38,914 nucleotides of DNA. It comes from Desulfuromonas sp. TF (GTDB lineage Bacteria; Desulfobacterota; Desulfuromonadia; Desulfuromonadales; ATBO01). The notes below the pieces were generated by a model that was not told the DNA's origin, ran no database searches, and saw nothing but the letters and a program-made list of their open reading frames with translations. The DNA is taken from contig NZ_KI421418.1 of the NCBI RefSeq assembly GCF_000472285.1, positions 8,551 through 47,464 on the forward strand, read 5' to 3'. Positions 4,693 to 35,320 of the stretch are shown piece by piece. Position 1 is the first letter of the stretch. Each line of letters begins with the position of its first letter. A program made the translations under genes and the position numbers.

Positions 4693-6486
4693 TTATGGCT
4701 GTTTTGCTCTGGCGGCCACCCGGATGGAAAGTTCCCGGAGCTGCTTCTCGTCCACGAACCCCGGCGCCTCGGACATCAGGCATGTCGCCTTCTGGGTTTT
4801 CGGGAAGGCGATCACGTCGCGAATGGAATCGGATCCGGTGAGGATCATTGTGAGTCGATCCAAGCCGAAAGCGATGCCGCCGTGAGGCGGAGCGCCATAT
4901 TCGAGAGCGTCCAGGAGAAAGCCGAACTTGCTCCTGGCCTCTTCCTGACCAATCCCAAGCAGGTCGAACATTTTGCTCTGCACTGCCTGATCGTGAATAC
5001 GAATGCTGCCGCCGCCGATTTCCGAGCCGTTCAGGACCAGATCGTAAGCTTTGGCCCTCGCCTTGCCGGGTTCACTGTCGAGCAGAGAAATGTCTTCGTC
5101 CAGCGGTGCGGTGAAAGGATGGTGGACCGCCACGTGGCGCCGCTCCTCGCCGTCCCACTCGAGCAGGGGGAAATCGGTGACCCAGGCGAATTTGTAGACG
5201 TTCCGATCGGCCAGGCCGAGCTTCTGTCCGAGATGGCTTCGCAACCTTCCGAGGGACTCGTTGGCCACCCGGGCGCTGTCGGCGACGAAGAGGAGCAGGT
5301 CGCCGATCTCGGCATCAAGGGACTTATTGAGAGCCGCAAGTTCATCGGAAGTGAAGAACTTGGCGACAGGCGACTGCCACCCCTCTTCGGTCATCTTCAC
5401 CCAGGCAAGCCCCTTGGCTCCGTAGATGGCCACGAAGGCGGTGAGATCGTCAAGCTCCTTGCGGGAGAAGGAGGCGCAGCCCTTGGCGTTGAGGGCCTTG
5501 ACCAGCCCCCCCTTGGCAGCCACGTCGGCGAAGACCTTGAACCCCGATTCGGCGACCAGGGAGGTGATGTCGATCAGTTCAAGGGCGAAGCGCAGGTCGG
5601 GATTGTCCACCCCGTAGCGGTCCATGGCCTCCGCATAGGTCATGCGGGGGACGGGAAGGGTGATGTCGACGCCGATGGTCTCTTTGAAAATGGCCGCGAT
5701 CATTCCTTCCATGATGTTCATGACATCGTCACGGTCGACGAAGCTCATCTCGCAGTCGATCTGGGTGAATTCAGGCTGCCGGTCGGCCCGCAGGTCCTCG
5801 TCCCGGAAACATTTGACGATCTGGCAGTAACGGTCGAAGCCGGAAACCATCAGGAGCTGCTTGAACAGCTGGGGGGACTGGGGAAGGGCATAGAACTGCC
5901 CCGGATTGACCCGGCTGGGAACCAGATAATCCCGCGCCCCTTCCGGTGTGCTCTTGGTCAGCATGGGGGTTTCTATTTCCAGAAATCCCTGGGCGTCGAG
6001 GTAGTTTCGGGCGGTGCGGGTCGCCTGGTGGCGAAGGATGAGGTTGTGCTGGACGGCGGAACGGCGCAGGTCGAGATAGCGGTGCTTGAGACGGATGTTC
6101 TCCGCCACCTCGGAGTACTCGTCCAGCATGAAGGGGGGCGTTTTGGCGGCGTTGAGGACGCGCAGATCGCTGATTTCGATTTCCACCTCCCCGGTCTTCA
6201 TCTTCGTATTGACCGTTCCCTCGGGGCGCGGGGAAACCACCCCCTTGATCGCCAGGACGAATTCGTTGCGGACCCGGTCGGCCTTCTGATGGGCCTCGGG
6301 ATCACGGTCCGGGTCGAGGGCGAGCTGAATGATCCCCTCACGGTCGCGAAGATCGATGAAGATCAGGCCGCCGTGGTCCCGGCGACGCTGAACCCAGCCC
6401 ATAAGGCAGACCTCTTTTCCGATATCGGCGGCCGTAACCTGGCCGCAATAATGGCTCCTTTTCCAGTCACCAAGCAAGTCGTTCAA
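4693..6486 (-). CDS. aspS: Aspartyl-tRNA synthetase
   Basis: A 597-residue class II synthetase that charges tRNA-Asp. It has an N-terminal OB-fold anticodon-binding domain (about 1-110, [11 protein letters not shown]), class II motif 2 in [18 protein letters not shown], a bacterial GAD insertion in the middle, and motif 3 GIAFGLDRL near the C-terminus. The start is set at TTG 6486 because GGAGGA stands seven bases before it. A TTG five codons upstream (6501) is in frame but sits before the ribosome site. The resulting N-terminus, ending [11 protein letters not shown], matches the family. Whether it is discriminating or also charges tRNA-Asn cannot be judged by eye. It lies downstream of hisS with a promoter of its own between them. 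Confidence 0.95.
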
Positions 6487-6545
6487 GTGTAAATCCTCCA
6501 AAAGAGAACGGTTATTTTTCGCTGTCGGTATTTGCGCAAAGGCGA

Positions 6546-6591: not shown

Positions 6592-7851
6592 TCACAGCCG
6601 GCGAAGGCGCTCGAGCAGAAGCTCTTCGAGTCCTGCAAGGGGGATCTCTTCCTGGGTTCCGGCATCCATATCCTTCAACAGGGCCGCCTGGCGGGCGATT
6701 TCATCCTCTCCCAGAATCAGCACATGGCAGGCTCTCAGCTTGTCGGCGCGGCGGAGCTGAGATTTGAGGCTTTTGCCTTCGTAATCCATTTCGGCCCGGT
6801 GTCCCCGGCGCTGCAGGCTGGACATGAGGATAAAGGCCTGGCGGGCGGCCTCATCGCCGATAGCGGCGAGAAAGAGCTCAAGTCGGGGCGGCTGGACCAG
6901 CGCTTCCCCTTTCATCAGCACCAGCCGCTCAACTCCCATGGCGAATCCGATTCCCGACAGCGGAGGGCCCCCCAGCTCCCGGACCAGGCCGTCGTAGCGT
7001 CCGCCGGCGGCCACGGCATTCTGGGATCCCAGGCTGCCGGTCACCACTTCGAAGGTGGTTTTCGTGTAATAATCCAGACCCCGGACCATCCGCGGGTTCA
7101 CCGCATAGGGGATGGCCAGGTCGTCCAGATGGCCGCGCACCTGCGCGAAGTGCCCGGTACAGCCGCCGCACAAGTGGTCGAGCATGGAGGGGGCATCCAG
7201 CGTGGCCTCCCGGCAGCCTTTGGCCTTGCAGTCGAGAACCCGCAGGGGGTTGGTCCGGTATCGCCTCTGGCAGTCCTCGCAGAGGCTCTCCAGACGCTCC
7301 TGCAGGAAGTCGATAAGGAGATTGCGAAACGCCGGCCGGCACTCCGGGCAGCCGAGGGAGTTGATCTGCAGTTCCACATCGGGAATGGCCACCTCCTCAA
7401 AGAAATGGACCAGCATGGCAAGCACCTGGGCATCGATCTTGGGATCGTCGACTCCTACCACCTCGGCGCCGATCTGGTGGAACTGGCGGTAGCGCCCCTT
7501 TTGGGGACGCTCGTAGCGGAACATCGGTCCCATATAATACAGCTTGGCGATCGGGTCCCTGTTATGCAGTTTGTTCTGGATGAAGGAGCGCATGACCGGA
7601 GCGGTCCCCTCGGGGCGCAAGGTAAGAGAATTTCCGCTTTTGTCGCTGAAGGTGTACATCTCCTTTTCCACGATATCGGTGGTTTCACCGATGGAGCGGC
7701 AGAATAGTTCCGTCTTCTCCACCACCGGCACCCGGATTTCGGCAAAGCCGTAGGCCCGGAAAATTCGCCGTGCCTGTTCTTCAAGATGCTGCCAGGTTTC
7801 CACTTCCCCCGGCAGGATGTCGTTCATTCCCTTGATCCCTGTGATACTCAC
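6592..7851 (-). CDS. hisS: Histidyl-tRNA synthetase
   Basis: A 419-residue class II synthetase that charges tRNA-His. Visible landmarks are the N-terminal GIKGMNDILP, motif 2 LRPEGTAPVMR with YMGPMFRYERPQKGRYR, the histidine-A region GLDYYTKTTFEV, AAGGRYDGL, motif 3 around GIGFAMGVERL, and a C-terminal anticodon-binding domain. The start is a GTG at 7851 preceded by GAGGGA at six bases. It follows the TPR gene by 45 bases and is likely cotranscribed with it. In Geobacter sulfurreducens, as I recall it, hisS also neighbours the GacA cyclase gene, which matches the cyclase found two genes upstream here. Confidence 0.95.
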   Translation of the reverse strand: MSITGIKGMNDILPGEVETWQHLEEQARRIFRAYGFAEIRVPVVEKTELFCRSIGETTDIVEKEMYTFSDKSGNSLTLRPEGTAPVMRSFIQNKLHNRDPIAKLYYMGPMFRYERPQKGRYRQFHQIGAEVVGVDDPKIDAQVLAMLVHFFEEVAIPDVELQINSLGCPECRPAFRNLLIDFLQERLESLCEDCQRRYRTNPLRVLDCKAKGCREATLDAPSMLDHLCGGCTGHFAQVRGHLDDLAIPYAVNPRMVRGLDYYTKTTFEVVTGSLGSQNAVAAGGRYDGLVRELGGPPLSGIGFAMGVERLVLMKGEALVQPPRLELFLAAIGDEAARQAFILMSSLQRRGHRAEMDYEGKSLKSQLRRADKLRACHVLILGEDEIARQAALLKDMDAGTQEEIPLAGLEELLLERLRRL

Positions 7852-7896: not shown

Positions 7897-10215
7897 TTAC
7901 CGCTTGCGCCGGCTCTTCGCGACATTGAGACTGCGCAACTGCTCCAGGCTGCGTAGGCCGTCCTGTGCTTCCCGGCGATATGGGTCAAGGGACAGGGCTT
8001 CCCGGAAGGCGGTCTCCGCCTCCTCGAACAAGCCGCCGGCCATTACCTCATTCCCTGCGGCAATAAGGTAATGGAGGTCTCCTTCCATCGCTTCCAGCGC
8101 CCGGCCCACTCCTTCCCGAGCCTGTACGATGGAGGGGTCGATGTAGAGCACGTGGCGGTAGCGGGAAAGCGCCCGGTCGAACTGGTGTGCCGACATATCT
8201 TTCTCTGCAGCTCTGATTTCCCCTATTGCAGCCGCCGCGCTTCGAGTCTCGACTTCCGCAAAGCCGTTGAGGGCGTCGGGGTGTTGCGGGGATTGGGCAA
8301 GCGCCTTACTGAAATAATCTCTGGCCTGTCTGAAATCGTTTTTCTTCAGCGATTTCCTGGCCGCTTCTATAAATGTGTAAAATTCTGTTCTCAGGCTCCG
8401 GTCGATGGCGTCCAACGTTTCACGAAGACCGGAATCGTCCCTGAGGCGCAAGGCGTTGCCAAAATGCTCACGGGCTTGCCGCAAGCGACCGGCGCTCCTG
8501 GCCCGTTGCCCCCACTGTGCCTCCTCGGAGATCATGGCGCTGATCAGAACCTCAATTCTTGCCAGTCCATCGCTTCCTTCCCTGAACTCCGGAACCAGCT
8601 TCAAGGTGGCCTCGAAGGCCTCATGGGCCTCGGCCAGTCTGCCGTCCTCCAGGGCCAGTCTCCCCCGTGCCGCAATCTCTGAAGCCTTCGCCTCCAGAAG
8701 TTGGGCAATCCTCGACTTTTCGTCCCGTGCCTCATGGTTGTCCGGATCCAATGCCAGGACATGAGCGAAGGCTCTTTCTGCTTCTTGAAGCAATCCCCCA
8801 GCGGCCAATTTTGTGCCCTTCTCGAGGGCCTCTGTGAGTTCTCCGCCCAATTTCTCAAGAGCCTGTTCCTTTAAATCCCGCCCCAGAAGCGAATCGGGCG
8901 CAAATTCCAAACCGGTCTTGAGCTGCTTTAGAGCCTCATGCGGTCTGTTCTGCTCGAGCGATTGTTCGGCCAGGGCGAAGAGGGCCGCGGCCTTTTTATT
9001 AATTTCCACCCGGGTTTCCGATGCACAGGCGAGGGCTCCGGGGTGGGCGGGATGAAGGGCGAGGGCGGCCTCAAATTTCCCCAGAGCCTCCAGGTATTCA
9101 CGCTGGTAAAACAGGGTGCGCCCTTCGGCAAGGAGTTCCTCTGCGGCTCCGGCCCGGACGTCCGCAATGCTGATGGTCGCAGCCTCGTGGGAAGGATCCA
9201 GCGCCAGGACCCTTTCGAAGCATGCTCGGGCCGCTTGAAATTCCTTCAGGGACAGGTGAATATTCCCGGCCATGGTGAGATCCTCCAGAGCGGCCGGCTG
9301 CCGGTCGATCAGCGGCTCAACGGCAACGAGCGCCTTCCGGAGTTTTTTCTGTTCCAGGAGGGCCAGTGCGCTGTTCCGGAGGAGGGAATCCATGCTTCGG
9401 CGGATTTCGGCGGGGCTCGCATGATAGATTTTCGCCAGACGGACCGCGGCCCCTTCGTAATCTCCCTCGGAATAATCGAGAGAGCCGAGATAATATATGG
9501 CGAGCGGGCTTCCAGGGTTCGTGCGCAGTGCTTTGTTGAAGTCTTTTCTGGCTGCCCGGAGATCCCTGTCCTCCAGGGCTTGCTGTGCCCGGTTGAAATA
9601 GAGCGTATAGACGTATTCCCTGGTTGTGACGTCGTCCGGATAGACCTTCAGATAGGCGTCGAATTCGGCCAGAGCCCGTTCGATCTGGCCTTCTCCGGCG
9701 TAAATCTCCGCCAGCTGGCGGCGGATCTCCTGTCGGTCCGGGTCGAGGGCCAGGGTTTTTGCGAAGAGTCTGGCCGCTTGGTCTGGGGAATCGGTTTCCA
9801 GGCAGGTCAACGCAAGATTGTAATAGGCATTTGCCAGGGGAAAGAGCCCAGGTTGCTCCAGAGCTCCCAGAGCTTCGGCCTCATCGAAGTAGAGCAGGGC
9901 ACTGTCGAGGTCGCCGGTCCGGCTGTGGGCCGATCCCAAGAGATAGTTCATCTCGGCGGAATCGCTGAATGCGGGGTAGGCCTGACGGAATTCGGCTATA
10001 GCCTCGTTATCCAGCCCTTCGGCCAGCAGGGCCGAGCCAAATGAATAATGCAGGATCGGGTTGTCGGGATCGACGGTCAGGGCCAGACGATAGTGATCAA
10101 TGAGGGATAACTGTTCCCCGGCTGCCGAGGCAAGGTCTTCCGCTTCTGCAGGGCAAGGGAAAGATGAGACCACAATGCTGCAGAAAGCGGCCAGGACGAA
10201 TGGCCGAAGTTTCAT
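7897..10215 (-). CDS. Exported TPR-repeat protein
   Basis: A 772-residue protein with an N-terminal signal peptide (MKLRPFVLAAFCSIVVSS, likely cut near AEA-ED) followed by tetratricopeptide repeats over essentially its whole length. Typical TPR positions recur, such as ALDPDRQEIRRQLAEIYAGEG, NPGSPLAIYYLGSLDYSEGDY and LALDPSHEAATIS, separated by charged spacer helices. TPR arrays are protein-interaction scaffolds. The sequence does not show a partner. The ATG overlaps the TGA of the upstream cyclase gene (ATGA), so the two are translationally coupled and probably act in one pathway or at matched levels. The last residues are basic (KSRRKR). The exact repeat count needs a profile search. Confidence 0.85.
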   Translation of the reverse strand: MKLRPFVLAAFCSIVVSSFPCPAEAEDLASAAGEQLSLIDHYRLALTVDPDNPILHYSFGSALLAEGLDNEAIAEFRQAYPAFSDSAEMNYLLGSAHSRTGDLDSALLYFDEAEALGALEQPGLFPLANAYYNLALTCLETDSPDQAARLFAKTLALDPDRQEIRRQLAEIYAGEGQIERALAEFDAYLKVYPDDVTTREYVYTLYFNRAQQALEDRDLRAARKDFNKALRTNPGSPLAIYYLGSLDYSEGDYEGAAVRLAKIYHASPAEIRRSMDSLLRNSALALLEQKKLRKALVAVEPLIDRQPAALEDLTMAGNIHLSLKEFQAARACFERVLALDPSHEAATISIADVRAGAAEELLAEGRTLFYQREYLEALGKFEAALALHPAHPGALACASETRVEINKKAAALFALAEQSLEQNRPHEALKQLKTGLEFAPDSLLGRDLKEQALEKLGGELTEALEKGTKLAAGGLLQEAERAFAHVLALDPDNHEARDEKSRIAQLLEAKASEIAARGRLALEDGRLAEAHEAFEATLKLVPEFREGSDGLARIEVLISAMISEEAQWGQRARSAGRLRQAREHFGNALRLRDDSGLRETLDAIDRSLRTEFYTFIEAARKSLKKNDFRQARDYFSKALAQSPQHPDALNGFAEVETRSAAAAIGEIRAAEKDMSAHQFDRALSRYRHVLYIDPSIVQAREGVGRALEAMEGDLHYLIAAGNEVMAGGLFEEAETAFREALSLDPYRREAQDGLRSLEQLRSLNVAKSRRKR

Positions 10216-11585
10216 TTGCCTTTTAGCTCCCAGGCCCCCCGGGTCGCATTGCGGACTTTTTTGCCGTCGTACATGGCCCGATCGGCGAGATCGATGATGG
10301 TCTTTTGATCAGTAGCGTTTTCGGGGAAGGTGGCATATCCCACCGTCGCCGTCACCCTGCAGGCCAGGCCGGCTTCCGTCAGGAAAACGTGTTCTTCTAT
10401 CGTCCGGCGAATCCTCTCGGCAACGACTGCGGCGCCCCGCGAATCGGTTTCTACCAGAAGAGCGGTAAACTCGTCCCCGCCATAGCGGAACAGAAGATCG
10501 ACCTCACGGACGCTCCTGCGGAGCAGGCCGGCCACTTCTCGCAGGGCGCTGCTGCCGGCGAGATGACCATGGGTGTCGTTGAGGTCCTTGAAATTGTCGA
10601 GATCGATGAAGGCCAGGGAGAATTCGAGACCGTAGCGTTCCGAGCGGCGAACTTCCTGCTCAAGGGCGGTCTGCAGGTAGCGGTAATTATACAACCCGGT
10701 CAGATCATCGGTATAGATGAGTTCGCGGGCGCCCTGGTACCGAAAAGCGTTTTCGAATCCCAGGGTAGCCTGTTCCGAAAGAAAGAGGAGGCTTTCATGG
10801 GGGATGGGATGGGGGAAGTCGGAGCCGGCAGCATTGAGGATAACGATGGCGCCCTTGAGGATCTTCTGGCAAAGCAACGGAAAGAGACACAATGTCCTGA
10901 CTTCATCTGGCCAGCGGCTCTTGGGGGCAAGCTCGCCGCCGCGCATCAGACGAATGCCGGCGAGGTCCTTGAGATGGGGCAGAAGGGATTCGGCCAATGC
11001 CCGAGCTTCGTCTTCATCGAGGTTTTCCACGCCCAGAAGCCGGGAGACGGCATCTTTTTCCAGAAGGAAGGCGAACCCGCGCCCGTCTGCGATTTCCCGC
11101 AGCAGGGTCATGACCGCCTGTGGAAGAAGGCGTTCGATTTCAAGTGAGGAGGCCAGATCCTGTCCTTTCCGAAAAAGACTGATCTGGCTCTTAAGTAGGA
11201 TGTTTTCGTCGAGTACCCGACGCTGTTCCAGGCACGTGCGCACCAAGTGGCGCAGCTCATCGGGGTTGAAAGGTTTTACCAGGTAGTCGCGGGCCCCGTT
11301 CTTGAGGGCCTCAATCGCTGTTTTCACGGTAGCATGGCCGGTGGCGACGATCACGTCGGGCGGGGCGTCCAGGGTTCGGGCCTGGCGGAGAAACTCCAGG
11401 CCGTCCACGCCGGGCATGACGAGATCGGTGAGGACGACATCGACCCCGCCGCGGCGCAGCCGGCTTAACGCATCATCCCCGGAGGCGAAGGTCTCGATCC
11501 GGTATCCGTCTTCGCTTAAAAGTTCAGCATAAAGGCGGCGGAAGAAGAGTTCGTCGTCCACCACCAGTATGGTAGGTTTTTTCAT
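10212..11585 (-). CDS. gacA: Receiver-GAF-GGDEF nucleotidyl cyclase with Hypr (cGAMP synthase) signature
   Basis: A 457-residue response regulator. The receiver domain (about 1-120) has the acidic pair in LVVDDE, phospho-acceptor Asp54 in LTDLVMP and the switch lysine in YLVKPF. A GAF-like middle (about 140-285) precedes the GGDEF domain (about 290-450). The active-site loop RYGGDEF (369-373) is intact. RxxD (360-363) stands five residues before it, matching the product-inhibition site. The residue equivalent to PleD Asp344 is Ser345 (NDTHGHLAGS, codon 10551-10553). In Geobacter GacA (GSU1658) the matching Ser gives a Hypr enzyme making 3',3'-cGAMP. The product assignment is inference from this residue, domain order and hisS proximity; c-di-GMP synthesis remains possible. 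ATG 11585 is chosen over an upstream TTG at 11603 because GGAG precedes it. Confidence 0.85.
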   Translation of the reverse strand: MKKPTILVVDDELFFRRLYAELLSEDGYRIETFASGDDALSRLRRGGVDVVLTDLVMPGVDGLEFLRQARTLDAPPDVIVATGHATVKTAIEALKNGARDYLVKPFNPDELRHLVRTCLEQRRVLDENILLKSQISLFRKGQDLASSLEIERLLPQAVMTLLREIADGRGFAFLLEKDAVSRLLGVENLDEDEARALAESLLPHLKDLAGIRLMRGGELAPKSRWPDEVRTLCLFPLLCQKILKGAIVILNAAGSDFPHPIPHESLLFLSEQATLGFENAFRYQGARELIYTDDLTGLYNYRYLQTALEQEVRRSERYGLEFSLAFIDLDNFKDLNDTHGHLAGSSALREVAGLLRRSVREVDLLFRYGGDEFTALLVETDSRGAAVVAERIRRTIEEHVFLTEAGLACRVTATVGYATFPENATDQKTIIDLADRAMYDGKKVRNATRGAWELKGK

Positions 11586-11639
11586 CCGGCAAGACTCCGT
11601 CAAGGAATTAGTAAAGCTAACAAAATCCTTGGGATTATG

Positions 11640-14180
11640 TCAATGGAAAAGGCCTTTTTCCCACTGTTTGGCCCGCCATCCCCTCCCTGTTGTCGAAAAC
11701 TGCAGACTTCCCTGACGATCGGTCCGGTGGACGGGTATTTCCCGTTGTCTGAGGTCGTCCATAACGGATTGGTGAGGCAGGTGGTATGGATTGCCGGCGC
11801 CGGCTGAAACAAAAGCGACTGCCGGTTCGAAGCGCTCCAGCAGAAGCTCGGGAGACGATTTGTGGCTGCCGTGGTGGGGGAGCTTGAGTAGGGTCACCGG
11901 TTGCGGCGGGTCGGCGGCAAGGAACCCGGATACCCCGGCCTCTTCCATGTCGCCGGTCAGGAGGACGCCTTCATCCAGGATGCGGGCGTAAAGGACAAGA
12001 GAATTGTCGTTCAGGGAGTATTCCAGGCGGCTGGGGTTGTAAATGGAGAGTGATCTCTCCCGGGTGTCGTCGAGCACGGTCCAGCCTTGCGGTACCTGAA
12101 CCACGGGAATCTTCCGCCGCTCTATGACACTACGCAGTGAAGTATGGATGGCGTCCGGGGAGGTCGAAGACCAGAAGGCTTTTACCGGGAAAGATTCAAG
12201 GATATGCTGAAGTCCCTGCCGGTGGTCGAGATCGTCATGGGTCAGGATGACGGCTTCCAAAGAGCGAACACCGAGGCGTCCCAGGGCCGGGGCCACAAGT
12301 CTTTCCCCCACGTCGAAGGTTTCGCTGTACAGCCCTCCGCCGTCCACCAGGTAGTGCCTGCCATCCTCAAGGGAAAGGAGCGTGGCGTCACCCTGTCCCA
12401 CGCTCAAGGCGGTGACAGTCAGCCCGGTCGGGGCGGGCTGCCAGAGAAGAAACAGCGCCGCGAAGGTCAGGAGCGTGCCCCTGAAGGGTCTGCACCGGCG
12501 GAGGCCGCCGGGCAGGAGGAGCGTCGCGGCCAGCAGGAAAGCGGCGGCAATCTGGAGAGGTGACGCATAGACGATGCTGCCTTCCATCAGGGGAAGGCTA
12601 ACGATCCATTCGGCCAGGGTGAGGACCTTTTCGATGAGCAGTCCGCAGCCCTGCAGCAGAGGGGCGGCCGCCCCTGGCCAGAATGACGACAGCAGTGCCC
12701 CGCCGATTCCGAGCGGTACGGCGAGAAAACCGATAGCGGGAACCGCCGCCATATTGGCGATCAGCCCCGCCGGGGCCAGCAGGTGAAAGTGAAAAAGGAC
12801 CAGCGGAGCCGTGGTAATCGTCGCAGCAAGGGTGGCTGCTGCCAGCGAAGCTGGTTTTCGCAGAGGGCGGGGCAGGGCTGCTATCCCGGGTTGCCAGCGG
12901 GGGAGCAGAACCAGAAGCCCGAGGACGCCGGCGAAGGACAGTTGAAAAGATGGGGCAAAAAGGGCAAGGGGCTCCAGGCAGAGAATGAGCAGGGCGGTTG
13001 CGGTGAGCAGCTTCAGGGGAGGCGTTCGTCGTGCACCTAGAAAAAGAAGCGCCCCCGCCAGGGTCATGATAAAGGCCCGAAGGGTGGGAAGGCCGCTGCC
13101 GGTAAAAAGGAGGTACGCCCAGAGCAGGGGCAGGAGAAGGGGCGGCAGGTAACGTCTGGGCGGGCCGAAAAGCAGAAGAGACTCGCAACGGCGGTAAAAA
13201 AAGCGCCCGCCGACATACAGAAAGGCCGCGATCAGTCCCAGATGCAAACCGGAAATCGCGAACAGGTGCGAAATGCCGGCCCGCCCCATCAGCTCTCTTT
13301 GATCCGGTGTTATTTCGCCTTTGTCGCCGATGACCAAGGCGCGCACCAGCGGCGCCAGAGTGGGATCGACAGCGCGGTCGATAATGCCGGCGACATCGGT
13401 GCGCTGTTTCGCAATCAGTGATGCGGGACCGTGCGGCCGCTGCGATCCCGTTTTGACGATCCCCTTCGCCTGGGGAAGAAAAGCCGTGACAAAAATACCC
13501 TGGCCGGCTAGGTGGCGCGAAAAATCGAATTCACCCGGAGTGCCGAAAGCGCGGGGCGCCCTCAATCTGGACAGGAAACGGATGGTATCGCCCGGGGCGG
13601 CCGGCGGATTGTTCTCCCTGATATACAGCCGCAGCTTTCCACGGGCCGGAGCGGCTATCCCCTCGGATATGACACGATGGGTCTCCAGGTCGATGACCGA
13701 ACGACCAAAGGGGCGATTGCCGACGCTCAGCACCGCTCCTTCGACCGCCACCGGTCGATCACTGATAAAGGCCCGGATATGGCCGGAGTCCCCCGGCGGG
13801 GTGGTCCGCAGATGATAAAGTGAGATGCCCAGAACGAAAAAGAAGGCCGCCAGCAGAATCCCGCTCACCCTGGAGGCTCGCGCAATGAAGCAGAGGATTG
13901 CCACGATAAAAGGGGCTGAAGCAAATGCCGGCGAAATGTCCAGAAAGGGGGCGCAGCCCAGGCCAAGGGCATAGCTCAGAAGGAATAAAGGGGGCCCCAC
14001 AGGTAGTCCCTGCCTCGACGGTTGAATGACCGCCGACGCAGCGGGCAGGTCAGATGGTGGGGTGCTTTTCTTTCGCAGTACGACCGATGGGTCGGCCGTA
14101 CCAGACGTGATCCGGCTTTCGTAAGGAAATCGTCTCAAACCCCCTCCGGAACAGATTGACGGTCCAACGCAGATTAGCAC
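11640..14180 (-). CDS. comEC: ComEC/Rec2-type DNA-uptake channel protein
   Basis: Up to 846 residues with the three-part ComEC plan. The N-terminal membrane and OB-like region (DUF4131 type) covers about 65-220. The multi-helix Competence domain covers about 250-540 (ISHLFAISGLHLGLIAAF is its hallmark). A C-terminal metallo-beta-lactamase-like domain covers about 570-835, with LSVGQGDATLL, THDDLDHRQG, LLTGDMEE and LPHHGSHKSS. The family carries single-stranded DNA across the inner membrane in natural transformation. The start is uncertain: the frame opens at GTG 14180, but the first 60 residues are low in recognisable features. A GTG at 14000, just before the first membrane helix, is an alternative. 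It precedes the cyclase gene by about 54 bases and may head that operon. No other competence gene is in the window. Confidence 0.85.
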   Translation of the reverse strand: MLICVGPSICSGGGLRRFPYESRITSGTADPSVVLRKKSTPPSDLPAASAVIQPSRQGLPVGPPLFLLSYALGLGCAPFLDISPAFASAPFIVAILCFIARASRVSGILLAAFFFVLGISLYHLRTTPPGDSGHIRAFISDRPVAVEGAVLSVGNRPFGRSVIDLETHRVISEGIAAPARGKLRLYIRENNPPAAPGDTIRFLSRLRAPRAFGTPGEFDFSRHLAGQGIFVTAFLPQAKGIVKTGSQRPHGPASLIAKQRTDVAGIIDRAVDPTLAPLVRALVIGDKGEITPDQRELMGRAGISHLFAISGLHLGLIAAFLYVGGRFFYRRCESLLLFGPPRRYLPPLLLPLLWAYLLFTGSGLPTLRAFIMTLAGALLFLGARRTPPLKLLTATALLILCLEPLALFAPSFQLSFAGVLGLLVLLPRWQPGIAALPRPLRKPASLAAATLAATITTAPLVLFHFHLLAPAGLIANMAAVPAIGFLAVPLGIGGALLSSFWPGAAAPLLQGCGLLIEKVLTLAEWIVSLPLMEGSIVYASPLQIAAAFLLAATLLLPGGLRRCRPFRGTLLTFAALFLLWQPAPTGLTVTALSVGQGDATLLSLEDGRHYLVDGGGLYSETFDVGERLVAPALGRLGVRSLEAVILTHDDLDHRQGLQHILESFPVKAFWSSTSPDAIHTSLRSVIERRKIPVVQVPQGWTVLDDTRERSLSIYNPSRLEYSLNDNSLVLYARILDEGVLLTGDMEEAGVSGFLAADPPQPVTLLKLPHHGSHKSSPELLLERFEPAVAFVSAGAGNPYHLPHQSVMDDLRQREIPVHRTDRQGSLQFSTTGRGWRAKQWEKGLFH

Positions 14181-18778: not shown

Positions 18779-19144
18779 ATGAGTAGAAAGATCATGACGG
18801 TGGACGATTCAGCGACGGTGCGGCAGATGTTGAGTTTTACTCTGCAGGACGCCGGGTACGAGGTGATAGAAGCCACGGACGGTGTGGATGCTCTTGAAAA
18901 ACTGAAAAACGAGGCGATTCAGATGCTCATCACCGATTTGAACATGCCCCAGATGGATGGAATCGAACTCATCCGCGAGGTGAGAAAGACTCCCGGAAAC
19001 CGCTTTGTTCCTATCATCATGTTGACCACCGAATCCACCGAGCAGAAAAAAAAGGCCGGGAAGAGTGCCGGCGCTTCGGGGTGGATCGTCAAACCTTTCA
19101 AGCCTGAACAGCTTCTGCGCGTGGTGAAGATGGTGCTGGTGTGA
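18779..19144 (+). CDS. cheY: Chemotaxis response regulator CheY
   Basis: A 121-residue single receiver domain. Asp9/Asp10 (VDDSATVR), phospho-acceptor Asp53 (ITDLNMPQMDG), Thr in LTTES and the lysine of WIVKPFKPEQL are all present. It would receive phosphate from the CheA encoded next and act on the motor or another output. A good ribosome site (GAGAAGG) precedes ATG 18779. Its stop overlaps the cheA start (GTGTGA), so the pair is translationally coupled. Confidence 0.95.
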   Translation: MSRKIMTVDDSATVRQMLSFTLQDAGYEVIEATDGVDALEKLKNEAIQMLITDLNMPQMDGIELIREVRKTPGNRFVPIIMLTTESTEQKKKAGKSAGASGWIVKPFKPEQLLRVVKMVLV

Positions 19145-21045
19145 CGGATCGGTACCGCGAGACGTTCAGGGATGAGGCCGGGGAGATTCTCTGCGAACTC
19201 GAAACCGCTCTGCTCGAACTTGAGGTGAGCCCCGGCGACGGGGAGGCCATCGGAAGGGTCTTCCGCGCTCTCCACACCATAAAAGGATCGGGAGCCATGT
19301 CCGGCTTCGATGAGGTGGCGAATTTCACCCATGAAGTCGAAACGGTTTACGAACTCGTGCGTTGCGGCAGGCTGCCGGTGAGCCGAGATCTGATCAATCT
19401 CACCCTGGGCGCCCGGGACAGGATCAAGACATTGATTGAGTCGAGCGGAGGGATCGATGACGCCCGAACAAGGGAGATCGTCGCGGCATTCAGGAAGTAT
19501 CTTCCTGAAGAGCAAGGCGATGCTCTCTCGATCTCCTCCAATTGCAGGGACATCACCTACCACATTCGTTTCTGCCCCCCCGCCGATATTTTTCTCCGGG
19601 GGATCAATCCTCTGGCCTTGCTGAAGGAGCTTGCCGAACTTGGTCAATGCCGGATCACGACTCACACGGAGGCGATCCCTGCGCTGGAGGAGATCGATCC
19701 CGAGCTTTGCCATCTCTGGTGGGATATCGTCCTGACCACCACCCGCGGCATGGACGCCATTCGGGATGTGTTCATCTTTGTGGAGGAAGATTGCGAACTT
19801 CGGATCGAAGCCGCCGGGCAGGGCGAGGAGCGCGATCGGACAGTTGTCGGTAACCGGACCCCGGACCAGGAGCCATCAGCCCCCGATACGGTCAGCAGCG
19901 TCCGGGTGCGTTCGGAGAAGCTGGACAGCCTGGTCGATCTTATCGGTGAGCTGGTGACCGTTCAGGCCCGCCTGGCACAGCTCGCCTCCGCCCGGGCCGA
20001 TGTGGAGCTCGATGGCGTTTCTGAAGTGGTTGAGCGCCTGACCTGGGAGCTTCGGGACCAGGTCCTCAATATCCGCATGCTGCCTATCGGAACCACCTTC
20101 AGCCGTTTCGGACGGCTCGTCCGCGATCTCGGAGAAGAGCTCGGCAAGGATGTGGTGCTGAGTACCGAGGGAGCTGAAACCGAACTCGACAAAACGGTGA
20201 TCGAACGCTTAAGCGATCCTCTGGTGCATCTGATTCGCAACTGTATCGATCATGGAATCGAGCCGCCCGCCGTCCGGCAGGTCGCCGGCAAGCCTCCGAA
20301 AGGCAGAATCCATCTCGCCGCACGCCATTCTGGGGCACATGTCATGATCGAAGTTCGCGACGACGGATCCGGAATCGATCTTGACCTGGTTCGAAATAGA
20401 GCGATGGCGATGGGCCTGGTCGGCGCTGAGGCCGATCTGAATGACAAAGAGCTTTATGGGCTCTTATTTCACTCCGGGTTCTCGACCGCCGCCTCTGTGA
20501 GCAACGTTTCGGGACGGGGCGTCGGGATGGATGTGGTGAAACGGGCCATTGACGGGCTGTGCGGCGGAATCGATATTTTCAGCCGTCCGGGAGAAGGAAC
20601 CACCTTTACCCTCAAGTTGCCGCTGACCCTCGCCATCATCGATGGCCTGCTGGTGAAAATTAGCGGTGATTTCTTCATTTTTCCCCTGTCGGCGGTCGAG
20701 GAATGCATTGAATTGCACAAAACGGATGCTGAAAAGGCGCACGGCAGGAATCTGGTCACTGTTCGAGGCGAGATTCTACCTTACATCAGGCTCAGGGAGC
20801 AGTTTGCCATCGCAGGAAAATCGCCGGAGATCGAACAGGTTGTGCTGACCGAAGCCGACGGGCAGCGGGTAGGATTCGTGGTGGACGAGGTAGTCGGGGA
20901 GCATCAGGCGGTTATCAAGGCCTTGGGGCGCATGTATCGCGATGTCAGAGGACTCTCCGGAGCTACGGTCCTGGGCGACGGCAGCGTGGCCCTGATCCTT
21001 GATCTGCCACAACTTGTTCAGATCGAGGAGTCCCTGGCTTGTTAA
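19141..21045 (+). CDS. cheA: Chemotaxis histidine kinase CheA
   Basis: A 634-residue CheA with all main modules. The Hpt domain (1-110) has phospho-histidine His45 in ALHTIKGSGAMSG. A P2-like CheY-docking domain covers about 138-225 (YHIRFCPPADIF...GINPLALLKELAELG). The P3 dimerisation helices cover about 256-320. The P4 ATPase domain covers about 320-500, with HLIRNCIDHGIE as N-box, DDGSGID as G1 and GRGVGMDVV as G2. A CheW-like P5 domain runs to the C-terminus. The GTG start overlaps the cheY stop by four bases. It would phosphorylate the CheY and CheB of this operon under control of the receptor and CheW. Length is typical. Confidence 0.95.
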   Translation: MTDRYRETFRDEAGEILCELETALLELEVSPGDGEAIGRVFRALHTIKGSGAMSGFDEVANFTHEVETVYELVRCGRLPVSRDLINLTLGARDRIKTLIESSGGIDDARTREIVAAFRKYLPEEQGDALSISSNCRDITYHIRFCPPADIFLRGINPLALLKELAELGQCRITTHTEAIPALEEIDPELCHLWWDIVLTTTRGMDAIRDVFIFVEEDCELRIEAAGQGEERDRTVVGNRTPDQEPSAPDTVSSVRVRSEKLDSLVDLIGELVTVQARLAQLASARADVELDGVSEVVERLTWELRDQVLNIRMLPIGTTFSRFGRLVRDLGEELGKDVVLSTEGAETELDKTVIERLSDPLVHLIRNCIDHGIEPPAVRQVAGKPPKGRIHLAARHSGAHVMIEVRDDGSGIDLDLVRNRAMAMGLVGAEADLNDKELYGLLFHSGFSTAASVSNVSGRGVGMDVVKRAIDGLCGGIDIFSRPGEGTTFTLKLPLTLAIIDGLLVKISGDFFIFPLSAVEECIELHKTDAEKAHGRNLVTVRGEILPYIRLREQFAIAGKSPEIEQVVLTEADGQRVGFVVDEVVGEHQAVIKALGRMYRDVRGLSGATVLGDGSVALILDLPQLVQIEESLAC

Positions 21046-21136
21046 CTCGGGGAGTAGTCGTCATATGAATGTTGGGCATCCTTTTTTGCAGTGAAAAGGC
21101 GGGACCCAACGTTTTCAGAAGCTGGAGGAGATAACG

Positions 21137-23332
21137 ATGAAAATTTTTGCCAAGCTTACAGGCGCGTTTGCCATTGTCGCCCTGATCTGCGGTTTGGTGG
21201 GCGGCATCGGATGGTATGGGCTGGACAACACCGCCGAAGGCCTCAACGACCTGGGACGAGTCAAGCTGCCGGCCATACAGGGACTCGGGCTGGTGATGGA
21301 GGGGATGAACGGGGTCAACGCCTCGGCGCGGACCATCATCAACCCGGCCATCAAGGTCGAAGAGCGGCAGCAGGAAGTCGGCGAAATGGAAAAGTACAAG
21401 GCGCTGATGCAGGAGGGACTCGATATTTTTGCCGCGCTTCCAAGATCGCCGGGAGAGGAGGAGCTTTGGCAGAAGGCTAAGCCCCTGATCGGCAAGTGGA
21501 ATGATGAGAACCAAACGCTGGCCGAAATAGCCTCAGCCGTTACTGTCGACGATGTCGGATACCTTCAAGGGGTGTTGGCTGCCCGCCAGATCGACCATCT
21601 TAAATGGCTGCAGAACCTCGAATACGCCATATCCCACAACCGAACTTTCAGCGGTCAACTCGACCCGGCCCGATGCGACTTGGGCCAATGGCTGAGCCAC
21701 TTCGAAACGGGTGATTCAGCTCTGACTGAAATCCTGAACGGTTTCGCCGGCCCCCACGCCGCACTTCATGAGGTGGGCGGCAAGGTCAACGGGCTGCTCG
21801 CCAATGGCGACTTCAAGGGCGCCCGGCGGGTCTATGAAGAAGAGGTCATGGCAGCTGCGGCAAATATAATGAGGATTTTTGATAATGCCAAAGGCTATGC
21901 TGCCAACGTTGGCAGCGATCTGGACGTCGCGACCCAGATCGCCTTCGGCAGCGGCGAGGCAGCCTACAATGAGCTCATGGAGGTATTCGACAATCTCTAC
22001 GAACTGGCCCGGTCATTGGCCGACGAGACCAATGCGAGGGCCCAGTCGACGGCGGCGAGCAGCAAGACAATCGCCCTGCTGGCCGTCCTGGCCGGAGCGA
22101 TATTGGCGATGACCTTCGGGTTTTTCATATCGCGGAGCCTTTCCGACCCCCTGGCAAAAGGGGCGGCCCTGGCCGAAGAAATCGCCCGGGGTGATTTCAG
22201 CCAGCGACTCAACCTGAACCGGAAGGATGAGATCGGTCAGTTGGGAAAGGCCCTGGACGCGATGGCCGGAAGCCTGCAGGAGATGGCGGATCTGACAGAA
22301 GAGATATCGAAAGGCAACCTGACGGTCGACGTCAAACTTGCATCCGAGAAAGACCAGTTGGGCAGGGCTTTGCAGAACATGACGCGAATTCTCAACGACG
22401 TCATCGGGCAGGTCAAGTCGGCCGGAGACAACGTGGCCTCGGGGAGCCAGGCGATGAGTTCTGCCTCGGAGGAACTTTCACAGGGGGCGACCGAGCAGGC
22501 CGCATCGGCCGAAGAGGCCTCTTCCTCCATCGAGCAGATGACGGCCAACATCCGGCAGAATGCCGACAACGCCCTTCAGACGGAGAAGATCGCCGTCAAG
22601 GCCGCCGAAGACGCCCGCTCCGGAGGCAAGGCGGTCGCCGATACCATCGTGGCGATGAAGGAGATCGCCGGCAAGATCATGATCATCGAGGAGATCGCAC
22701 GGCAGACCAACCTTCTGGCCCTCAACGCGGCCATCGAGGCGGCGCGGGCTGGTGAACACGGTAGAGGATTCGCGGTCGTAGCCGCCGAGGTTCGCAAACT
22801 GGCCGAGCGCAGCCAGGTTGCGGCGGGGGAAATCAATGCCCTTTCGGTCTCGAGCGTCGGAGTAGCCGAGCAGGCCGGAGACATGCTTAAAACCATGGTG
22901 CCCAACATCCAGAGAACGGCTGAGCTGGTGCAGGAGATCGCCGCCGCCAGCCGGGAACAGGACGCCGGGGCGGGGCAGATCAACAAGGCAATCCAGCAGC
23001 TTGATCTGGTTATCCAGCAGAACGCTTCGGCCTCCGAGGAGATGGCTTCAACCGCGGAGGAGCTTACCGCTCAATCGGAGCAGCTTCAGGAGATGATCTC
23101 TTTCTTCAGGTTGGCCGAGAAGAAGAATGGCAAAAAAAAGAAAAGCCTCCAGGCGGTTAAGGAGGAAATCGGTTCCGTGGAACTGCCTGGAAAAGAAGAG
23201 CCGCAAAAAGTGAAAGCCGTGGGAGCCGATGTCGATCGAAACCGTGAAGTGAAGGAAAGCAAGAAAGCCGGCATTGCCCTGGATATGGATGTCCTCAGCG
23301 ACAGCATGGACGAAGAGTTCGAACGATTCTGA
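21137..23332 (+). CDS. mcp: Methyl-accepting chemotaxis protein with a CZB-like zinc-binding signature
   Basis: A 731-residue receptor. TM1 (about 7-28) and TM2 (about 311-333) flank a helical, presumably periplasmic domain. Within it, His154 (DHLKW), Cys180 (CDLGQW), His207 and His211 (PHAALH) match the chemoreceptor zinc-binding (CZB) ligand pattern: 27 residues from Cys to His, then 4 to the last His. A HAMP and a second HAMP-like segment (about 330-430) lead into the signalling hairpin with the conserved tip [28 protein letters not shown]. After the methylation helices a long charged linker (about 655-725) ends in EFERF, a CheR/CheB-type tether. GGAGGAG precedes ATG 21137. It sits between cheA and cheW and is the operon's own receptor. 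Confidence 0.93.
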
Positions 23333-23368
23333 AACCGTATCGATACCCTTAAGGCACAGGCGAATACC

Positions 23369-23866
23369 ATGAATAGTGCACAAGGTACCACCACGACGCA
23401 GTACCTGACCTTCAAGCTGGGTGAAGAGAATTTCGCCATCGATGTCATCAAGGCGCAGGAGGTTCTCGATTTCGTTGCTCCGACTCGGGTCCCTCAGACA
23501 CCAAGTTTCATGCTCGGGGTGATCAATCTGCGCGGCAGTGTCGTGCCGGTGATCGACCTGCGCCTGAAATTCGGCCTGCGCGATGGTGAACGGACCCGCG
23601 ACACCTGCATTATCGTCATGGAAATCGAAGTCGATGGAGAAAGGACGGTGGTCGGAACCCTGGTCGATTCCGTGCGGGAGGTTCTCGACCTGAACGCCGA
23701 AAATCTGGAACCGCCGCCGCGCATCGGAACGCGGCTGAAGACCGAGTTCATCAAGGCAATGGGAAAGCTGGATGGTGATTTTCTCATCATCCTCGATATT
23801 GACCGGGTCTTTTCCACCAATGAACTGGTGCTGATCGAGGATGCCCTTCAAAAAAAGAGAATGTGA
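23369..23866 (+). CDS. cheW: Chemotaxis adaptor CheW
   Basis: A 165-residue CheW-domain protein that couples receptors to CheA. Hallmarks are QYLTFKLGEENFAIDV at the start, VINLRGSVVPVIDLRLKFGL in the first subdomain, VVGTLVDSVREVLDL, and the final strand FLIILDIDRVF. It lies 36 bases after mcp and before the binding-protein gene. The upstream ribosome site is modest (GGCACAGGCG region). Confidence 0.95.
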   Translation: MNSAQGTTTTQYLTFKLGEENFAIDVIKAQEVLDFVAPTRVPQTPSFMLGVINLRGSVVPVIDLRLKFGLRDGERTRDTCIIVMEIEVDGERTVVGTLVDSVREVLDLNAENLEPPPRIGTRLKTEFIKAMGKLDGDFLIILDIDRVFSTNELVLIEDALQKKRM

Positions 23867-23924
23867 AGAGGGGCTTCGCCAGGGAAGAGATCCATAACAT
23901 TCAATGATAAAAAAGGAGAAGAAA

Positions 23925-24728
23925 ATGAAGAAGCTGATCGTTCTGTTGATTGCCGCAACCATGGTCCTCGGTGTGACGGGAGCGGCGATTTCGGCCGAGA
24001 TCGTCACCTGCTGGTTCCCCCCGAGCTGGAACGCCAAGGCGGAGAAGGCCCAGTCCATCACCAAGGCCCTGGCTGAGGAATCCGGAGTCATCATCCGCGC
24101 CAAGATCGCCCGCGACTACCCCGAAATTCTCAATGCCTTTTCCACCTCCAAACCCAATCTGGTCTATGTCGGCTCCTTCGCCCAGGCCATTATCAAGGCA
24201 CGCAACCTCGGCACTCCGCTGGTTCAGAGCATCGACGGCAAGGAACTCTACTCGGGCATCCTGGTTTACCCCAAAGGGCAGGACCCTCAGGGGATACTTC
24301 AGCAGCATCCCGAGAAGATCGCCTTTGCCGCCGCCGCTTCCTCGGGAGAGTCGTGCGCCATGGCCGCGACAGGCGGCAAGTCGGCCATAAAGGTGGCCAG
24401 CCATGAGGCGGCTTCCCGCGCCGTGGAGTCGGGAGAAGCCAAGGCGGCCGTGGTCAAGAACTGGTGGTGGGAAGCCAGCAAGGTGAATCATCCTTCCCTG
24501 GAAAGCTATGAGATCCCGGGTGTGTCGCTCAGCGGAAATCCCGACAACGTGCTGACGGCCTCCAACGCCGTCTCCGAAGAAACCCGGTCCAGGATTTCCA
24601 AGGCTGCCCTGCTGCGCAAAGATGTCTTCGGGGCGAATAAAATGGTGCCCTTCGATGCAGCACGACTCGATTTCAGCCTCTCGCTGATGCGCAAGGGCAA
24701 CATCGACCCCCTGAAGTACACCTGGTAA
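23925..24728 (+). CDS. PhnD-like periplasmic binding protein in the chemotaxis operon
   Basis: A 267-residue exported protein. The signal peptide is MKKLIVLLIAATMVLGVTG with a cut likely near ISA-E. The mature part has the two-lobe pattern of phosphate/phosphonate-type (PhnD) binding proteins: CWFPPSWNAKAEKA at the start, NLVYVGSFAQAI in the first lobe, GILVYPKGQ and IAFAAAASSGESC at the crossover, then AAVVKNWWW. ATG 23925 is chosen over 23904 because AAAAGGAG stands between them. No permease or ATPase is encoded nearby. Its position between cheW and cheR argues for presenting a ligand to a receptor rather than transport. The ligand cannot be inferred; phosphonate is only the family label. 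Confidence 0.85.
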   Translation: MKKLIVLLIAATMVLGVTGAAISAEIVTCWFPPSWNAKAEKAQSITKALAEESGVIIRAKIARDYPEILNAFSTSKPNLVYVGSFAQAIIKARNLGTPLVQSIDGKELYSGILVYPKGQDPQGILQQHPEKIAFAAAASSGESCAMAATGGKSAIKVASHEAASRAVESGEAKAAVVKNWWWEASKVNHPSLESYEIPGVSLSGNPDNVLTASNAVSEETRSRISKAALLRKDVFGANKMVPFDAARLDFSLSLMRKGNIDPLKYTW

Positions 24729-24734
24729 TTGCAA

Positions 24735-24780
24735 CTTTTGCCGGCCGGCTTCCGCCAAAAGAGGAACCGGCCGGCAAAAG
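24735..24780 (+). repeat. Large hairpin between the binding-protein gene and cheR
   Basis: A perfect 14-bp inverted repeat (24735-24748 with 24767-24780), GC-rich at its core, in the short gap between two operon genes. Neither strand has a T run after it, so it is not a standard terminator. An RNA stability or processing element that keeps the binding protein abundant is more likely. Confidence 0.6.
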
Positions 24781-24814
24781 CACCATCTTGCATATGAATG
24801 GAAAGGGAAAGGGT

Positions 24815-26871
<2,057 letters not shown>

Positions 26872-26903
26872 ATCTTTTTCCATTCGAAGCCTCGGGAGTA
26901 AGA

Positions 26904-27779
26904 ATGCACGAAATGAGTGATCAACAATTGATTGAAGCCCTACGGGAGCGCTTCGAATTTAATCGCAGGGCGTTGCACGATCTTCAGGCCGTCACCCGGC
27001 AACTGGAGAAGACGAACCGGAGGCTTCAGGAATCGGAAGCCCTCAAAAGTCATTTTCTTTCCAATATCCGCAACGAGATCAACAACCCGCTGACCGCCAT
27101 CCTCGGATGGGCGAAGCAGATGGGGAGCAGGGAACTTGGCGGCGAAAAAGTATCCGCCATCGCGCGGATGATTCATGATGAAGCCTTCCATCTCGATTTT
27201 CAGCTGCAGAACATCTTTATGGCCGCCGAACTGGAAGCCGGGGAAGCCGTTCCCGACTTTTCCATGGTGGACGTCGCTGCGATGATCGAGGCCATCTCCG
27301 ATTCCCTGCGCGAGCGTGCCGCCTTGAAAGGGGTCTCGCTGAACGTGCCTGTCGAAGGGCCGCTTTTTTTTAACACCGATGCCCGGATGCTTCATCTAAT
27401 AATTGCCAACCTGCTCGTCAATGCCGTGGAATACACCCCTGTCGGAGGAAGGATCATGACCACGGCCGGGTGTGACAGCGGCGGGCTTAAGCTGGAGGTG
27501 GAAAATCCGGGCCACGGGATTCCTCCCGAATGCCAGGAACTGGTCTTCGATCGGTTCCGTCAACTGGAGACGGGGACGACCAAAAGCCACCCGGGACATG
27601 GGCTTGGGCTGAGCATCACCAAGGCCCTCTCCGAGCTGCAGGGAGGTTCGATCTCCCTGAACAGCGATACAGAGAAGGGATGCATCGTGACCGTGTTTCT
27701 GCCTGAACCACCGGCCGGCTCAAACGTCATGGCCGAGGAAGGCAATTTCTTTCTCTTTCTGGATTCCGAAGCTCTGTGA
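26904..27779 (+). CDS. Histidine-kinase-like protein without the phospho-accepting histidine
   Basis: A 291-residue soluble protein with an N-terminal coiled coil (about 15-50), a HisKA-like helix pair and an HATPase domain. The H-box reads SNIRNEINNPLTAILGW. The residue that should be His is Asn (codon AAC at 27071-27073), one base from CAC. The ATPase part keeps an N-box (IIANLLVNAVEY), F-box (VFDRFRQLE) and G2 (GHGLGLS). The G1 motif has Asn in place of Asp (VENPGHGIP), which some active kinases tolerate. It probably cannot autophosphorylate at the normal site and may bind ATP or partners. ATG 26904 has GGGAG upstream; ATG 26868 would overlap the cheB stop. The stop overlaps the cheD GTG. 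Confidence 0.85.
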   Translation: MHEMSDQQLIEALRERFEFNRRALHDLQAVTRQLEKTNRRLQESEALKSHFLSNIRNEINNPLTAILGWAKQMGSRELGGEKVSAIARMIHDEAFHLDFQLQNIFMAAELEAGEAVPDFSMVDVAAMIEAISDSLRERAALKGVSLNVPVEGPLFFNTDARMLHLIIANLLVNAVEYTPVGGRIMTTAGCDSGGLKLEVENPGHGIPPECQELVFDRFRQLETGTTKSHPGHGLGLSITKALSELQGGSISLNSDTEKGCIVTVFLPEPPAGSNVMAEEGNFFLFLDSEAL

Positions 27780-35174: not shown

Positions 35175-35266
35175 GATGGTAGACGAGAATACTTAACCTT
35201 CCGCGAGGAAGGGGCGGAAAGCCTACAGGGTCTCACCGAGACAGCCGGGTTGCCGAAATGTCATCG
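35175..35266 (+). ncRNA. GEMM-I riboswitch aptamer, cGAMP-type (GEMM-Ib) signature
   Basis: Aligned by eye to Vc2. The first hairpin is CCTTCC-GCGA-GGAAGG (35197-35212) with a GNRA loop. It is followed by GGGGCGGAAAGCC (35211-35223; Vc2 GGGACGCAAAGCC), the second hairpin GTCTC-ACC-GAGAC (35230-35242), and AGCCGGGTTGCCGA (35243-35256; Vc2 AGCGGGGTTACCGA). The Vc2 21:46 G-C pair becomes C-G here (35192:35217), a compensating change that supports the alignment. Ligand-contacting A47 is 35218. Position 20 is A (35191) rather than G, the feature of GEMM-Ib RNAs that bind 3',3'-cGAMP in Geobacter relatives. The outer stem is weak (GATG with CATC). Ligand choice is inference; c-di-GMP is the alternative. 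Confidence 0.85.
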
Positions 35267-35277
35267 ATATTTCAGCC

Positions 35278-35316
35278 CCGGCTGTTCTGTTTCCGCAACA
35301 GCCGGTAGAGGAGGGC
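35278..35316 (+). promoter_or_regulatory. Riboswitch expression platform: switchable hairpin before the kinase start
   Basis: CCGGCTGTT (35278-35286) pairs perfectly with AACAGCCGG (35297-35305), ending just before the ribosome site GAGGAGGG (about 35309-35315). The segment CCGGCTGT is equally complementary to ACAGCCGG inside the aptamer (35241-35248), so the two pairings exclude each other. There is no T run, so control at translation initiation (or a Rho-type mechanism) is more likely than an intrinsic terminator. Confidence 0.65.
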
Positions 35317-35320
35317 GGGC

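Follow-up and report, generated by a model that had tools for sequence, protein, structure and literature searches.

What does a receiver-linked GGDEF protein produce when the aspartate expected at the specificity position of a diguanylate cyclase is replaced by a serine, and what would read its product? The question is raised by one gene of the 38,914-nucleotide stretch of Desulfuromonas sp. TF DNA analyzed here (hereafter the window), for which a preliminary description had proposed an equivalence with GacA (GSU1658), the cGAMP synthase of Geobacter. The GacA-cGAMP pathway has been worked out in Geobacter sulfurreducens; no paper on a cGAMP or Hypr pathway in Desulfuromonadales was found among the literature matches listed. 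Papers on Leptospira and Desulfovibrio also use the word Hypr.

The gacA-like gene and its product

The open reading frame and its Pfam domains place the gacA-like gene at 10212-11603 on the minus strand, to which all the features of the protein given below also belong. It encodes a REC (receiver) domain, a middle domain without Pfam match and a GGDEF domain, in a protein of 463 residues when counted from TTG 11603 and of 457 residues from ATG 11585. The Met encoded by this ATG is kept in at least 90% of 28 aligned sequences, which makes it the likelier start. Residues are numbered here from the TTG. The specificity Ser is then Ser351, and it becomes Ser345 when counted from the ATG; the latter number, used in the preliminary description, fits the likelier start because the corresponding Met is nearly invariant in the 28 sequences.

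The REC domain (PF00072, residues 12-121, 11241-11570) carries its acceptor Asp60 (11424-11426), a residue that 72 of the 75 distinct orthologs share. In the GGDEF domain (PF00990, residues 297-449, 10257-10715), the translation includes LNDTHGHLAGSSAL and, further on, RYGGDEFT. The guanine-binding Asn342 (10578-10580) corresponds to Asn339 of the Geobacter metallireducens enzyme (GmGacA), and exactly nine residues further stands the Ser (codon AGC, 10551-10553), equivalent to Ser348 of GmGacA and to Asp344 of PleD. The primary I-site RxxD (REVD, residues 366-369, 10497-10508) and the GGDEF motif (residues 375-379, 10467-10481) are both intact, as had been noted before, and R397, equal to R393 of the G. 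sulfurreducens enzyme (GsGacA), is the second I-site Arg. At the cross-dimer site, where most diguanylate cyclases have an Arg, the protein displays Tyr307 (10683-10685), the counterpart of Tyr304 of GmGacA.

Specificity residues and closest relatives

Among solved structures, the closest by sequence is 6D9M, which is the GGDEF domain of GmGacA (Gmet_1914), with an E value of 2.8e-54, as compared with 1.7e-39 for PleD. The alignment to 6D9M, gapless in this region, puts Ser351 on Ser348 and Tyr307 on Tyr304 (6D9M residue numbers were counted from the construct, residues 294-459), and in the alignment to PleD Ser351 falls on the Asp of NDTFGHDIGD. This is the comparison with GacA and canonical cyclases that had been suggested as a check, and it leaves the Ser on GmGacA Ser348, with no Asp at the selectivity position.

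Is this Ser an accident? Among the 22 GGDEF domains of the same genome (4.4 Mb, 17 contigs), the gacA-like protein is the only one with Ser, the others having Asp (19), Asn (1) or Gln (1), and every one of the 75 distinct GGDEF domains of the ortholog set, in which the query is counted, has this Ser. The residue is therefore not due to chance. The Asn, the Asp and Glu of the GGDEF motif, the RxxD (R366, D369) and R397 are likewise invariant in 75 of 75, and an Arg is never found at the cross-dimer site, which is occupied by Tyr (44), His (23), Gln (5), Phe, Val or Ser (one each). A count over the 80 nearest loci, 77 of which combine Ser or Thr with GGDEF (two have Asp and one has no motif), is biased, FRYGGDEF having been a search seed. 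Codon switching was also considered as a proof of selection on the Ser and was rejected: all 89 distinct ortholog-locus contexts use AGC or AGT, and it thus adds no proof. The domain with Asn at the specificity position (locus L015, G000:C2:334298-334765) has an intact motif.

The known Hypr enzymes give a frame for these residues. As stated in passages of the eLife paper on GacA (PMC6456294), Hypr enzymes combine Ser or Thr with no form of the motif other than GGDE[F/Y], the motif Glu serves as the cross-dimer base, and Arg occupies the cross-dimer position in 94% of predicted diguanylate cyclases. According to the same passages, cGAMP is the main product when a Hypr enzyme has Tyr, Ser, Ala or Gln at this site, and the two named Hypr enzymes bearing Arg lean to c-di-GMP. 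The Ser counts in the proven enzymes: its change to Asp converts GacA to a diguanylate cyclase (PMC6456294, in part) and makes Bd0367 an almost exclusive one, as reported in part of PMC9140294. It is insufficient by itself, since the reverse change did not give a cGAMP synthase in any of five canonical enzymes, of which four became inactive and the fifth was still a diguanylate cyclase (passages of PMC6456294). The gacA-like protein has the whole set of Hypr/GacA features that can be read from sequence, namely the Ser, GGDEF and not GGEEF, the catalytic Glu, a non-Arg cross-dimer residue, the I-site, the REC domain and a place in a clade with a proven Hypr enzyme; the Asp that defines a canonical diguanylate cyclase is missing, with Ser in its place.

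This place in the clade comes from a GGDEF tree of 53 rows, comprising the 22 domains of the genome, 6D9M, PleD, ten class orthologs and 19 hand-picked loci of the 80 named ones; a twentieth chosen locus (L166), whose match has no motif, was not included. The 29 rows with Ser or Thr lie on one side of a single branch (support 99/91), and this branch keeps a support of 98/91 when the Ser, Tyr and GGDEF-Asp columns are masked. The query groups within ten order-level rows (99/99), themselves nested in a 23-row clade (99/93) that also contains 6D9M, its class kin and rows from Bdellovibrionota. When the GGDEF domain of GmGacA is compared with the 22 domains of the genome, the gacA-like protein comes out at 56% identity (189 bits), and the next ones by score reach 41-43% (120-122 bits). 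A gacA match at E <= 1e-60 is found in 52 of 58 relatives and in 174 of 194 genomes of the class. TIGR00254, the model for diguanylate cyclase domains in general, is alone in exceeding its cut-off among the best 25 of 113 NCBIfam models. The pathway is thus easily missed in annotation, since the curated model that is passed names a plain diguanylate cyclase.

A conserved neighbourhood

The gene is preceded by a comEC-like gene (11640-14180, minus strand) and followed, two genes away as previously remarked, by hisS (6592-7851, minus strand; TIGR00442 over cut-off), after which comes an aspS-like class II synthetase gene (4693-6501). Both neighbours are conserved: comEC, gacA and hisS occur in the same order and on one strand in 42 of 42 tallied loci, which were hand-chosen for long contigs from the 174 genomes with a match (a 20-base stub, L241, was left out). 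The placement of GacA itself next to hisS in the preliminary description fits as well, because locus L274, where the GGDEF domain shares 94% identity with 6D9M, is flanked by comEC and hisS in this order. Taken with the Ser, the GGD, the non-Arg cross-dimer residue, the REC domain and the clade shared with 6D9M, this arrangement supports the proposed equivalence: by sequence, the gacA-like gene is an ortholog of the known GacA enzyme, in another order of the class.

Unlike in Geobacter, a TPR gene (7897-10215, minus strand) is inserted here before hisS. The preliminary description had seen in it an export protein coupled to the cyclase. The ATGA overlap of the two genes is real, the TPR gene starting at 10215, and the N-terminus of the protein looks by eye like a signal peptide. 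An export role is only a guess, because the best NCBIfam match, PrsT, scores far under its cut-off (113 versus 312 bits). Nor is the TPR gene a general partner of gacA, which is ruled out by its presence between gacA and hisS in only six of the 42 tallied loci; it also occurs at further shorter or named loci, for example L121, L135 and L138. It is a lineage-restricted insert.

The same locus can be followed in genomes without a gacA match. Nineteen of them were examined for hisS, which was found in 17. At 13 of these 17 loci (all eight of the family designated f18 and five others), comEC lies directly upstream of hisS and there is no space for gacA; at three others (G124, G147 and G060) no comEC was found within 1.5 kb; and in G020 a TPR gene stands ahead of hisS.

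Candidate receivers: GEMM-I aptamers with A at position 20

The genome contains 27 matches to the GEMM-I family RF01051, 26 of them over cut-off. Position 11 of the model, unpaired just ahead of the first pair, is the position of G20 in the Vc2 aptamer, in agreement with the equivalence of Cd1 G11 and Vc2 G20 given in part of PMC9262584, and ten of the 27 matches have an A there (A20). This residue is described in the same passages as a selectivity factor and not as a hard filter. The cGAMP-selective switch of Gmet_0970 has A20, and an A20G change shifts its selectivity to c-di-GMP; the omcST switch of G. sulfurreducens is reported to sense both ligands (both from passages of PMC6456294).

One A20 aptamer lies within the window (L048, 35181-35257, plus strand) and is a candidate cGAMP receiver. 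It scores 41.8 bits against a gathering threshold of 35, with A at model position 11 and a flipped C21-G46 pair. On the plus strand, between 35241 and 35305, two mutually exclusive pairings can be drawn, the aptamer strand 35241-35249 with 35277-35285 or 35278-35286 with 35297-35305, and the first gene behind them encodes a PAS sensor histidine kinase (35321-36667, plus strand). These pairings give the leader (35181-35323) a switch-like layout. The whole leader folds better than its shuffles (z -3.1). Taken by itself, the aptamer has no such advantage, 32 of 200 shuffles being as good, and the terminator scanner found no terminator after it.

Across the class, the A20 pattern of the C21-G46 subtype is present in 137 of 277 genomes, divided, by our own count, into 123 of the 141 genomes of families f22-f25 and 14 of the 136 of the order of our strain. 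GmGacA has its nearest relatives in one of these families, f23. Of the 277 class genomes, 52 show the other A20 pattern and 59 the matching G20 pattern. Some GEMM-I aptamers carry at position 20 a C (seven, of which five in G147) or a U (one, in G147): L326, L341, L359, L363, L364 and L373 in G147, L357 in G150 and L385 in G019. These possibly have another ligand or are decayed copies.

Genes behind the aptamers

First genes after the aptamers were picked mechanically as open reading frames and then scanned with Pfam. Behind the other A20 aptamers of the genome, L034 is followed at 115 nt by a REC-GGDEF gene, with a terminator visible by eye and none found by the scanner, and L039 at 124 nt by a membrane GGDEF gene, the scanner placing a terminator in between. 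Two A20 switches thus stand ahead of canonical diguanylate cyclase genes. L043 precedes a GGDEF-EAL gene by 680 nt, L037 an NtrC-type regulator and L044, after a small open reading frame, an OmpA-type protein at +454. L041 and L042 are followed by proteins without Pfam match, and L045 by a small open reading frame whose product is membrane-bound by eye. Behind L036 comes an ATPase-like protein (L301:415-1698), with weak AAA_22 and TniB matches that are both below cut-off; further downstream lie what seem by eye to be two-component genes, for a receiver-kinase and then a receiver protein.

For comparison, 16 of the 17 non-A20 aptamers (L040 was left out) have 13 distinct first genes behind them, ten of which were scanned with Pfam. 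Five of these ten are of surface type (two fibronectin-type, one DUF11, one MopE-like and one Ig/glucodextranase-like), and the rest are a GGDEF-EAL, an isochorismatase, an alpha/beta hydrolase, a PqqD-like protein and one protein without match; the three first genes outside the Pfam scan contain no GGDEF. The excess of GGDEF behind A20 aptamers (2 of 10 versus 1 of 13) is not significant (Fisher p 0.56). Two of ten first genes does exceed the expectation from 22 GGDEF genes in a genome assumed to hold 3,500-4,500 genes (p 0.001-0.002). As a general rule, GGDEF genes behind A20 aptamers are unsupported: among 33 A20 loci (31 from relatives and two from our genome), 32 gave a downstream open reading frame within the up to about 1.7 kb read, and a GGDEF was present at one of them (L106).

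Do gacA and A20 aptamers go together?

All ten sampled genomes of family f18 are devoid of a gacA match at E <= 1e-60, and at the eight f18 loci where it could be followed (L278-L284 and L286) gacA is absent between comEC and hisS. This is a loss of gacA at the comEC-hisS locus. The f18 aptamers have G20 in nine of nine cases, and neither A20 pattern was found in the 14 f18 genomes searched. The A20 share in f18 (0 of 9) differs from that in our genome (10 of 27) with a p of 0.04 that is uncorrected for relatedness, and the f18 absence is weak evidence because this family has few aptamers. Several f18 genomes do contain a GGDEF domain matching GmGacA down to E 3.4e-49, at which cut-off it is nearer to GmGacA than any canonical domain of our genome, so that f18 is not a clean case.

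A strict linkage between gacA and A20 aptamers fits f18 and fails in eight genomes of other families without gacA match, where 21 of 45 aptamers are A20. These eight are drawn from the ten non-f18 class genomes without match, G101 and G192, in which hisS had no match, having been left out; both have the second A20 pattern (C21-G46 subtype). By analogy with G. sulfurreducens, a second synthase similar to GSU1937 might explain A20 aptamers in genomes that lack a gacA match. In the gacA-bearing genome G019, A20 is carried by 3 of the 11 aptamers; it is carried by two of the three read (out of 13) in G010, and by none of the two read (out of 19) in G012.

Predicted product and alternative explanations

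Beyond the residues, orthology, synteny and aptamers described above, we infer from published Geobacter work what the product, mechanism, regulation and aptamer ligand would be. By this analogy, the main product of the gacA-like enzyme is very probably cGAMP. The protein would work as a homodimer with one NTP bound per subunit; its activity would be limited by c-di-GMP at the I-site and may be gated by the REC domain. Its product would probably be read by the A20-type GEMM-I riboswitches, ten in the genome and one of them within the window.

One could also assume that the protein is a canonical diguanylate cyclase in practice, making mainly c-di-GMP in the cell despite its Ser. Such behavior would be in line with the promiscuity of Hypr enzymes in vitro, with the D-to-S mutant that remained a pure diguanylate cyclase (passages of PMC6456294) and with TIGR00254 being the sole model over cut-off among the best 25 of 113. 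We nevertheless hold it for quite improbable in view of the Tyr at the cross-dimer site, the Arg-bearing Hypr enzymes being those that lean to c-di-GMP (PMC6456294, in part), and in view of the GGD and of its place in one clade with an enzyme of demonstrated cGAMP synthesis. Still less credible, and in our opinion close to negligible, is a catalytically dead receptor or scaffold binding nucleotides at its I-site only: a degenerate active site is indeed one way to lose the Asp, but all 75 distinct orthologs retain the Asn, the Ser and the GGDE of the motif unchanged.

A different doubt concerns the receivers. The enzyme could be active and the A20 aptamers answer c-di-GMP too, or instead, so that there would be no separate cGAMP pathway. 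We regard this as unlikely, somewhat less so than a mainly c-di-GMP-making enzyme: position 20 is no hard filter (PMC9262584, in part), the omcST switch is sensitive to both ligands (PMC6456294, in part) and some genomes without gacA match contain A20 aptamers all the same, whereas the gacA-less family f18, with its G20 aptamers and no A20 pattern, speaks weakly for the link to cGAMP.

Comparison with known systems and significance

The system most resembles GacA of Geobacter, with which it shares the REC-GGDEF layout, the Ser, the GGDEF, the Glu, the Tyr, the I-site residues, the comEC and hisS neighbours (as at L274) and the occurrence of A20 GEMM-I aptamers in the genome. The host belongs to another order of the class, and the pathway would thereby be extended to that order. 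Several targets in G. sulfurreducens are cytochromes, as reported in passages of PMC6456294, whereas no CxxCH was found in the first three open reading frames downstream of any A20 aptamer of our genome.

The other relatives are more distant. Bd0367 of Bdellovibrio bacteriovorus is also a Hypr GGDEF protein with Ser and a cGAMP synthase in vivo, but it has a Met at its cross-dimer site (both from passages of PMC9140294) and belongs to another lineage. The second cGAMP synthase of G. sulfurreducens, GSU1937, has Ser at the specificity position but differs by its transmembrane/HAMP architecture and its GGDDF motif (passages of PMC8835794), and in our genome the gacA-like protein remains the only one of the 22 GGDEF domains with Ser. 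PleD has in common a REC-linked GGDEF domain and an I-site; unlike our protein, it combines a specificity Asp with GGEEF and a cross-dimer Arg. The set-up is simpler here, a single genome holding one candidate for the synthase and ten for the receivers, and family f18, without gacA at the comEC-hisS locus and with G20 aptamers only, might serve to test the pathway in nature.

The proposal that A20 switches drive diguanylate cyclase genes comes from their positions in a single genome. A tentative hypothesis, which we consider possible and rather doubtful, would be that cGAMP stands above c-di-GMP. GacA as the single synthase would then act through A20 riboswitches directly controlling the cyclase genes behind L034 and L039, possibly the GGDEF-EAL gene behind L043, together with the sensor kinase and the NtrC-type regulator, and not a cytochrome-rich regulon like that of G. 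sulfurreducens. If this cascade is true, one cyclic dinucleotide would set the synthesis of the other via RNA. If the A20 switches ahead of the cyclase genes answer to cGAMP, the two signals would be connected serially.

The window also contains, at 19141-27779, a chemotaxis-type cluster that encodes a CheA-like protein, an MCP with a CZB zinc domain, a phosphonate-binding-type protein, CheR, CheB and a histidine-kinase-type protein.
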